Origin: Sphingomonas sp. Y38-1Y
Lineage (GTDB): Bacteria > Pseudomonadota > Alphaproteobacteria > Sphingomonadales > Sphingomonadaceae
NCBI RefSeq assembly: GCF_032391395.1
Contig: NZ_CP135916.1
Coordinates: 3,317,001-3,381,000, forward strand
Direction of reading: 5' to 3'
Length of the DNA stretch: 64,000 nt
Part shown: piece by piece, positions 34,762 through 36,819 of the stretch
Layout of the letters: each line of letters begins with the position of its first letter
Numbering within the stretch: the first letter of the stretch is position 1
Program-made: the position numbers and the translations under genes
Notes under the pieces: generated by a model
What the model was told of the DNA's origin: nothing
Database searches by the model: none
The model's input: the letters and a program-made list of their open reading frames with translations, nothing else

Positions 34762-34841
34762 CAGCGTTCGTTTCGAGCGTAGTCGAGAAACGCGGATCGA
34801 GCGCCAACCCCCGTTTCTCGACTTCGCTCGAAACGAACGCT
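34762..34841. repeat. Palindromic repeat, family G
   Basis: Arms CAGCGTTCGTTTCGAGCGTA and TTCGCTCGAAACGAACGCTG, with nested GTCGAGAAACG and CGTTTCTCGAC pairs. It follows a family C element, in the same order C/G or G/C as after atpC. Confidence 0.9.
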
Positions 34842-34865
34842 GATGTGTATGGGCCGGAACCTAGC

Positions 34866-35213
34866 TCAGCGCCCGGCGAACACCGTCGCCGCCGTAAACC
34901 CCTTGCCGATCAGTTCCACCCGGTACCGCTCGCCCGCCTTCAGCGCCGGCGGGGCGTCCGCACTGAACCCCTCCGGATTCGCCGCCAGCCGCACCTCGCG
35001 CACGCACGGCGTGTTGGCCATTCCGCGGGTCGCGTACCAGAGCTGCCGCGGCTTCTCGCCCTCGGCATAGAGGTATGCGCGGTCGATGCACGCGTCGAAC
35101 CCCGCCTTGGCCGGCGCGGTCGCAAAGCTGGTTCCCGCCGCCCCCTGCCGCACCTCGACCTCGACCCCTTCGCTGCACGCGGCGAGCGCCAGGAACAGCG
35201 CCAGCGCGATCAT
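34866..35213 (-). CDS. Small lipoprotein downstream of the DUF4157-like gene
   Basis: 115 residues. MIALALFLALAACSEGVEVE gives a lipoprotein signal peptide with lipobox ALAAC (Cys13). The mature protein of about 100 residues has four Cys in all including the lipid one, and ends ELIGKGFTAATVFAGR. I recognise no family. It begins 25 bases after the stop of the DUF4157-like gene on the same strand, so the two are probably co-transcribed. A partner or protective role toward that protein is possible but only suggested by the arrangement. A longer upstream frame overlaps the DUF4157 gene and was not used. Confidence 0.72.
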   Translation of the reverse strand: MIALALFLALAACSEGVEVEVRQGAAGTSFATAPAKAGFDACIDRAYLYAEGEKPRQLWYATRGMANTPCVREVRLAANPEGFSADAPPALKAGERYRVELIGKGFTAATVFAGR

Positions 35214-35238
35214 GCGGCGCCCTCCCCGGTCCGCTCGC

Positions 35239-36255
35239 CTACAAACCATAGATGCCGGTACCCTCCAGTCGCCGCTCCAGATCGGCGATCTTGGCCTGAT
35301 CGGCGGGATTGGTCGAGTGGCGGATTTCGGCATAGTCGCCGACCATCTGCGCCTGTCCCTCCAGCGTCTCGGTATCGAACACGGTGTCGCGGGAGGCATA
35401 GTCGTACAGCTTGTCGGCATCGCCGCCGGCCTGCGCGAACTCCTTGCCATAGCGCGCGCCGAACCCGCCGAAGCCGAGCTCCTCGTACTGGACGACGTGC
35501 GTCAGTTCGTGGTTGAGGAGGTTCCGGCCCGCCGCGGTGTCGGTGAAGTCCTTCGAGAAATGGCCGGGCTTGAAATAGACGGTGTCGCCAATGGTGATCG
35601 CCGGATTGCCGTTGGCGAACGCCGCCCGCGCGATCGGCGAGTTGCCGGGCCCGTCGACGAAGCGCACGTCGTCGAGGTTCACGCGGCCCCCGAACGCTTC
35701 CTGGACGAACGCCTTCTCATCGGCGGTCAGCTCTCGCGCCTTGTCGCCGCGCATCGAGTCCGCGACCTTGTCGGCGACTTCGTGCGGCAGATCGGCCAGC
35801 TTGTCGCGCACCGCCTCCGCCCCGCGCTTGAGGATGTCGAGCGGATTGGGGATGTCGGGAAGACCCGGAAGGTCGGGGAAGGACGGTAGTCCCGGAAAGG
35901 AGGGCAGGCCGGGCAGCGAGGGAAGCCCGGGCAAGCCCGGCAGGTCCGGGAAGTTGCGCGGCAGGCCGGGCAGCGATGGCAGGTCGGGAAGGTCCGGCAG
36001 TCCCGGAATGCCGGGAATGTCGAAGTCGAACGCGGCGAACGACGCAGCGGTCGGCGCGGTACGCGCGAGCACCCCCTGCTCGACCGGCGACAGCGACGAT
36101 TGCGCCGTGCGATAGGCGGCGGCGGCACCCGCCGGATCGACCATCGCCTGCGTCTGGAGCGCGCTTCCCAGCGTCATCGCCTCGGGCGGCGGCGCAGCGG
36201 CCTCGGGCGCGGTCGTGACGGCGGACGTCGTGCGGGTGATCTCCGAAGCCAACAT
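35239..36255 (-). CDS. DUF4157-like protein with zinc-protease motif and Pro-triplet stalk
   Basis: 338 residues without a signal peptide. Residues 1-79 are Ala/Thr/Pro-rich. Residues 80-138 are about 18 (G/D/S)(L/F/I)P triplets, such as PGLPSLPGLPSFPGLP, with one slip in phase near residue 100. Residues about 175-312 resemble the DUF4157 (eCIS-core) domain, with FANGNPAITIGDTVYFKPGH and the HExxH motif HELTHVVQYEE at 249. A helical tail ends ERRLEGTGIYGL. DUF4157 domains occur in putative zinc peptidases and in effectors linked to contractile injection systems. No such system lies in this window. The enzymatic activity is predicted, not shown. Confidence 0.78.
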   Translation of the reverse strand: MLASEITRTTSAVTTAPEAAAPPPEAMTLGSALQTQAMVDPAGAAAAYRTAQSSLSPVEQGVLARTAPTAASFAAFDFDIPGIPGLPDLPDLPSLPGLPRNFPDLPGLPGLPSLPGLPSFPGLPSFPDLPGLPDIPNPLDILKRGAEAVRDKLADLPHEVADKVADSMRGDKARELTADEKAFVQEAFGGRVNLDDVRFVDGPGNSPIARAAFANGNPAITIGDTVYFKPGHFSKDFTDTAAGRNLLNHELTHVVQYEELGFGGFGARYGKEFAQAGGDADKLYDYASRDTVFDTETLEGQAQMVGDYAEIRHSTNPADQAKIADLERRLEGTGIYGL

Positions 36256-36497: not shown

Positions 36498-36594
36498 GCC
36501 GCGACAACGTCATCCGATCGACTGGGTTGCCTGCATGTGATTGTCCCAGCGGCATTTGTGCGGCATATCGGCGCCAACCAGCCGGAGTTTCCCG

Positions 36595-36819
36595 ATGCTC
36601 ACCGCCCTGCTCCTCGTCGCCGCCCTGCCCCAGACTCAGCCCGCCCCAGCCCCGGTAACAAAGGCCGAACCGGCCAAGAAGATCTGCAAGGGCCGGGCAA
36701 ACACCGGCTCGCGGCTTCGCTCGAAGCCGGTCTGCAAGACGCAGGCGGAATGGGATAGCGACGCGGCGCTCAACGCCGACCAGACGCGCGGCATGAGCCA
36801 GATGCAGGGCCAGCGCTGA
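36595..36819 (+). CDS. Small exported protein, sphingomonad TGSR...VC...EWD type
   Basis: 74 residues with a signal peptide (MLTALLLVAALPQTQPAPAP). The mature part reads KKICKGRANTGSRLRSKPVC followed by KTQAEWD. This two-Cys motif recurs in small periplasmic proteins of sphingomonads, as far as I recall, and has no assigned function; the Cys pair may form a disulfide. GGAG precedes the ATG at 36595. It is likely a single-gene unit. Confidence 0.7.
   Translation: MLTALLLVAALPQTQPAPAPVTKAEPAKKICKGRANTGSRLRSKPVCKTQAEWDSDAALNADQTRGMSQMQGQR

Follow-up and report, generated by a model that had tools for sequence, protein, structure and literature searches.

The 64,000-nucleotide window of Sphingomonas sp. 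Y38-1Y analyzed here contains, on its minus strand, two adjoining genes that we interpret, with a probability of about 0.72, as an interbacterial effector-immunity pair composed of a zinc gluzincin toxin and a lipoprotein inhibitor, most likely carried as cargo by a type VI secretion system (T6SS). This interpretation is supported by homology and predicted fold, by the conserved linkage and co-divergence of the two genes, and by the presence of T6SS genes in the same genome; we infer the toxicity of the protease, its inhibition through lipoprotein binding, its delivery by the T6SS and the membrane anchoring of the lipoprotein. The first-pass annotation had proposed an effector with a periplasmic protector and the reading as a metalloprotease toxin with such a protector is well supported, since the protein is homologous to the toxin domain of VgrG2b, the two genes stay linked and diverge together, and one relative is fused to an RHS protein; the toxic and proteolytic activity in that proposal is putative. 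Under the proposed mechanism, the toxin lacks a signal peptide and would leave the cell as free cargo, the T6SS of its own host being the most likely route, with a helical head and a flexible tether of GLP-type triplets serving loading or reach. It would then damage the envelope in the periplasm of a recipient or sister cell, like the VgrG2b C-terminal domain, and the lipoprotein, encoded by the overlapping downstream gene, would bind and block the protease by means of a predicted Ig/FN3-like beta-sandwich.

The toxin gene corresponds to the open reading frame (ORF) 36255-35239 and encodes a protein of the 338 residues initially reported; at E 0.001, nothing else in the window genome (3.58 Mb) matches PF13699. 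The DUF4157 domain anticipated for it is confirmed by a Pfam match of its C-terminal part to eCIS_core (PF13699, former DUF4157) with an E-value of 1.9e-12 and 47.6 bits (cut-off 22), and HELTH begins at residue 249. H249, E250 and H253 are invariant in 28 aligned family sequences, and E299, conserved in at least 90%, sits opposite IEQQ of 6h56 in an alignment with that structure. E299 is thus the probable third zinc ligand and would be the one-to-one counterpart of E983, given as the third zinc ligand of VgrG2b in PMC6899460. The toxin shares fold and sequence homology with the VgrG2b C-terminal domain (17% identity over the aligned fold) and carries the gluzincin signature of the VgrG2bC-ter and Tpe effectors, an HExxH motif with a downstream Glu.

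In the family alignment, the GLP tether of the N-terminal half is confined to the closest relatives of the protein. Ahead of it lies a head of four predicted helices (residues 24-39, 41-54, 57-66 and 68-75), with AlphaFold2 predicted local distance difference test (pLDDT) blocks of 83-90 over residues 21-70 and an LSPVEQG motif common to other full-length family members; this head is possibly a loading or adaptor part. The tether holds exactly 18 (G/D/S)(L/F/I)P triplets, as first estimated, together with one NFP, and a further DLP lies outside it at residue 155. The rigid stalk that the first-pass annotation had read into these triplets is not borne out, because pLDDT falls below 50 over residues 77-124, and the tether may instead be flexible. 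Inspection by eye agrees with the annotation that the toxin has no signal peptide, and Pfam finds no RHS repeats in it.

A 115-residue lipoprotein 25 bases downstream had also been described. That ORF is present (35213-34866, minus strand), but the more probable start is the ATG at 35249, which makes the gene overlap the stop codon of the toxin by 11 nt and encode 127 residues, because a start codon occupies the overlapping position in 14 of the 17 loci for which the offset was read (13 ATG, one TTG; that of L100 was inferred) and, of the two candidate starts, this one alone supplies a positively charged signal-peptide head. The lipobox Cys, C54, C82 and one Trp are invariant in 17 lipoprotein alignment rows, L042 departing at the last Cys and L043 having an atypical lipobox. 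The signal sequence and conserved cysteines are traits of the Tpi/PA0261 immunity family. With a Ser at position +2 after the lipobox Cys, the protein is probably attached to the outer membrane on its periplasmic side. The lipoprotein evolves fast and probably protects its producer; the resulting alignment (A3, 18 rows, built without L101-L103) provides a set of divergent candidate immunity lipoproteins for this protease family.

Conservation of the pair was assessed over 19 family loci (the window, L031-L044, L094, L100, L101 and L138), after removal of L095-L099, which are copies of L035, L033, L036, L040 and L037, and of genome G1027, which seems to belong to the species of G1001. A lipoprotein or lipoprotein-like small ORF adjoins the toxin or its remnant in 18 of them, reproducing the small envelope-targeted ORF found directly downstream of VgrG2bC-ter and Tpe effectors; the gap between the genes is 101 nt in L041. 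The sole exception is L101, where the HExxH domain frame (L101:5576-6814) continues, without a lipoprotein, into the next gene, which we take to encode a queuosine-precursor transporter. Among 16 complete pairs (L101, L043 and L044 set aside), toxin domains are on average 46% identical and mature lipoproteins 27%, the lipoprotein value being the lower in 119 of 120 comparisons, and the two distances correlate at 0.74 (permutation p 0.0001, host relatedness not removed). Two lipoproteins stand in tandem in L044, an open lipoprotein frame lies beside a toxin remnant in L043, and in L042 an RHS protein ends in a related domain, with a small lipoprotein-like ORF next in line. Linkage, co-divergence, tandem and orphan lipoproteins and RHS fusion together make up the layout expected of a polymorphic toxin and its immunity protein. 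The very divergent L042 was left out of alignment A4, together with L094 and L100. An eCIS_core match occurs in 47 of 397 family genomes, neighbours having been examined for the named loci, and a literature search recognized no description of such a toxin-lipoprotein pair in Sphingomonas.

T6SS genes occur in the window genome in two clusters about 0.8 Mb apart. The first (about 1.97-1.99 Mb), roughly 1.4 Mb from the pair, encodes TssA, B, C, E, F and G, a ClpV-like ATPase, Hcp, VgrG and FHA; the second (2.80 Mb), roughly 0.55 Mb away, encodes TssK, L and M. An M23 peptidase gene adjoins tssK in the latter (the T6SS loci are L104, L105 and L139). Since these genes exist away from the pair, the new export route first suggested is unsupported for this genome, and we lean, if not strongly, towards T6SS delivery of the toxin there. 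In one sample of 396 genomes of the order, TssC is present in three of the six bearers (profile A1, E <1e-70, six candidates scored per genome) versus 24 of the 390 others (p 0.005).

Two more distant HExxH lineages complete the picture. The solitary lineage, a common protein of about 150 residues, shows no lipoprotein by eye in any of 18 loci (L052, L053, L055, L056, L058-L064, L066, L068-L073) among ORFs of at least 45 residues starting between -40 and +120 nt; in several of these (L055, L059, L060, L069, L070) the following gene presumably encodes a TonB-dependent receptor. TssC occurs in 2 of the 18 solitary-lineage genomes versus 7 of 11 pair genomes (p 0.01; the pair count later became 8 of 16 with five more genomes). 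The membrane-partner lineage (L102 and L103, the latter fetched a second time as L051) comes from two T6SS-positive genomes and overlaps by 4 nt a gene for a membrane protein of 76-81 residues. In G585, about 13 kb separate the L102 gene (L102:5132-5605) from tssK, and in G543 the L103 gene (5287-5955) lies beside cpaF, as the window pair does. It may be mainly the solitary lineage that underlies the open remark by Wood et al.; with the lipoprotein-paired lineage enriched in T6SS and the solitary one not, the puzzle becomes testable, and the T6SS-free bearers of the lipoprotein pair are the ones to examine.

The pair lies between cpaF and the rpsD block, as it does in S. spermidinifaciens (L031). 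In one of 30 cpaF loci, that of the close relative L109, a small gene lies between cpaF and rpsD and the pair is absent; in 27 others the available stretch contained neither the pair nor rpsD. The small gene of L109 has a counterpart in the window, the plus-strand ORF 36541-36819. A simple scan found no terminator-like site at 34762-34842.

Coordinates of the pair and associated features within the window
Feature	Position	Strand	Basis
Toxin gene, 338-residue free-standing metallopeptidase, candidate effector (P0001)	35239..36255	-	ORF list, Pfam, 6h56 comparison
Residues 24-75, predicted helical head with LSPVEQG motif	36031..36186	-	predicted structure, alignment
Residues 79-136, (G/D/S)(L/F/I)P tether, larger part predicted unstructured	35848..36021	-	triplet count, pLDDT
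Residues 138-338, metallopeptidase domain (eCIS_core / VgrG2b-like)	35242..35844	-	Pfam, structure comparison
HELTH zinc-binding/catalytic motif, residues 249-253	35497..35511	-	invariant H249/E250/H253
E299 in ETLEGQAQ, probable third zinc ligand	35359..35361	-	conservation, position opposite 6h56 IEQQ
Lipoprotein gene, immunity candidate, probable 127-residue full form	34866..35249	-	start-codon comparison, alignment, predicted fold
Inverted repeat of 34 nt (94% complementary) separating the convergent genes for CpaF and the lipoprotein	34762..34842	.	repeat scan

Several observations weigh against a T6SS-delivered toxin with its immunity protein. TssC is found in 8 of 16 bearers and missing from the other 8, in a count drawn from several searches, partly over metagenome assemblies of unstated completeness, and made without the L138 and L101 genomes. 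TssC, Hcp and TssK are all missing from S. spermidinifaciens, the nearest relative (83% identity over the domain), and on a tree of poor resolution the T6SS label shows weak clustering (32-38 of 500 shuffles gave a value as low). At 1e-5, proteins of the first T6SS cluster match nothing in the window or in the 19 loci with compared flanks (a comparison without TssK, L and M and without L138), the Pfam scan of the toxin recognized no T6SS loading domain, and the lipoprotein matches no curated immunity family in Pfam or NCBIfam. Used alone, Foldseek gave 19 matches at E-values up to 10, and 6h56 was not one of them. Homologues lacking a lipoprotein, which the first-pass annotation would have counted against its proposal, are represented within the family by L101 only, and beyond it by the solitary and membrane-partner lineages.

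One alternative is that the same toxin-immunity pair travels by a non-T6SS route, be it another contractile system or one using the head and tether, with the T6SS incidental. The bearers without TssC speak for it, as do two of the four GLP-type loci (L031 and L094), which lie in T6SS-negative genomes, and G597, where a phage-sheath-like match (E 3e-19) lies about 22 kb from a 1184-residue ORF matching profile A1, possibly an eCIS (extracellular contractile injection system) locus in a T6SS-free pair bearer (C1, about 1.17-1.19 Mb). Yet TssC is strongly enriched in bearers, and the window genome has a T6SS and gives neither a VirB4 match nor a phage/eCIS sheath match (PF04984, E 0.001; T1SS, T2SS and T5SS were not searched), which leaves such a route unlikely. 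Somewhat more doubtful still is the further notion that the pair has left the T6SS in Sphingomonadales and their neighbours, the head and length-variable tether forming an export or reach module for an unrecognized route; were it true, the T6SS-free bearers, nearest relative included, would wield a metalloprotease weapon that acts in the periplasm, needs no T6SS and is countered by an immunity lipoprotein.

An envelope protease with a housekeeping or self-directed function, the lipoprotein being its chaperone or inhibitor and competition playing no part, would fit the missing signal peptide and the solitary lineage, which displays the fold without immunity. It is improbable given the patchy occurrence of the pair (6 of 396 order genomes at E <1e-70, six candidates scored in each), its absence from the same site in L109, the fast co-divergence, the duplicated and orphan lipoproteins and the RHS fusion. 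The Pfam name points to an eCIS effector or core protein, a reading that seems very improbable: the PF13699 match is above cut-off, but no sheath match accompanies it, and the domain is C-terminal and probably itself the effector part, whereas in multidomain eCIS toxins, according to PMC8213781, eCIS_core lies N-terminal to the toxin.

The effector-immunity pair is thus probably the Sphingomonadales version of a known type, serving as T6SS cargo in the window genome, and its more novel aspect is how it might be delivered in T6SS-free bearers. eCIS_core/DUF4157 proteins of contractile injection systems (PMC8213781) share PF13699 with HExxH, but the window domain is C-terminal and lipoprotein-paired in a genome without an eCIS sheath match. 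RHS-type polymorphic toxins are echoed in the related domain ending the L042 RHS protein, with its small lipoprotein-like ORF, although the window protein has no such repeats. A further close parallel is the C-terminal domain of VgrG2b from P. aeruginosa, paired with PA0261 (H2-T6SS), which has the same gluzincin fold, HExxH plus Glu, and a downstream envelope-targeted immunity gene with conserved cysteines; the window toxin differs in being free-standing, with a helical head and GLP tether, rather than VgrG-fused, and its gene overlaps that of its partner far from T6SS genes. By the descriptions in PMC6899460, Tpe1-Tpi1 (ACIAD0053-ACIAD0054, A. baylyi) and SARI_02727-SARI_02726 (S. arizonae) sit, unlike the window pair, in T6SS loci, but they too involve stand-alone cargo metallopeptidase effectors, and the Salmonella partner, on the SARI_02726 side, is likewise a lipoprotein of the outer membrane.
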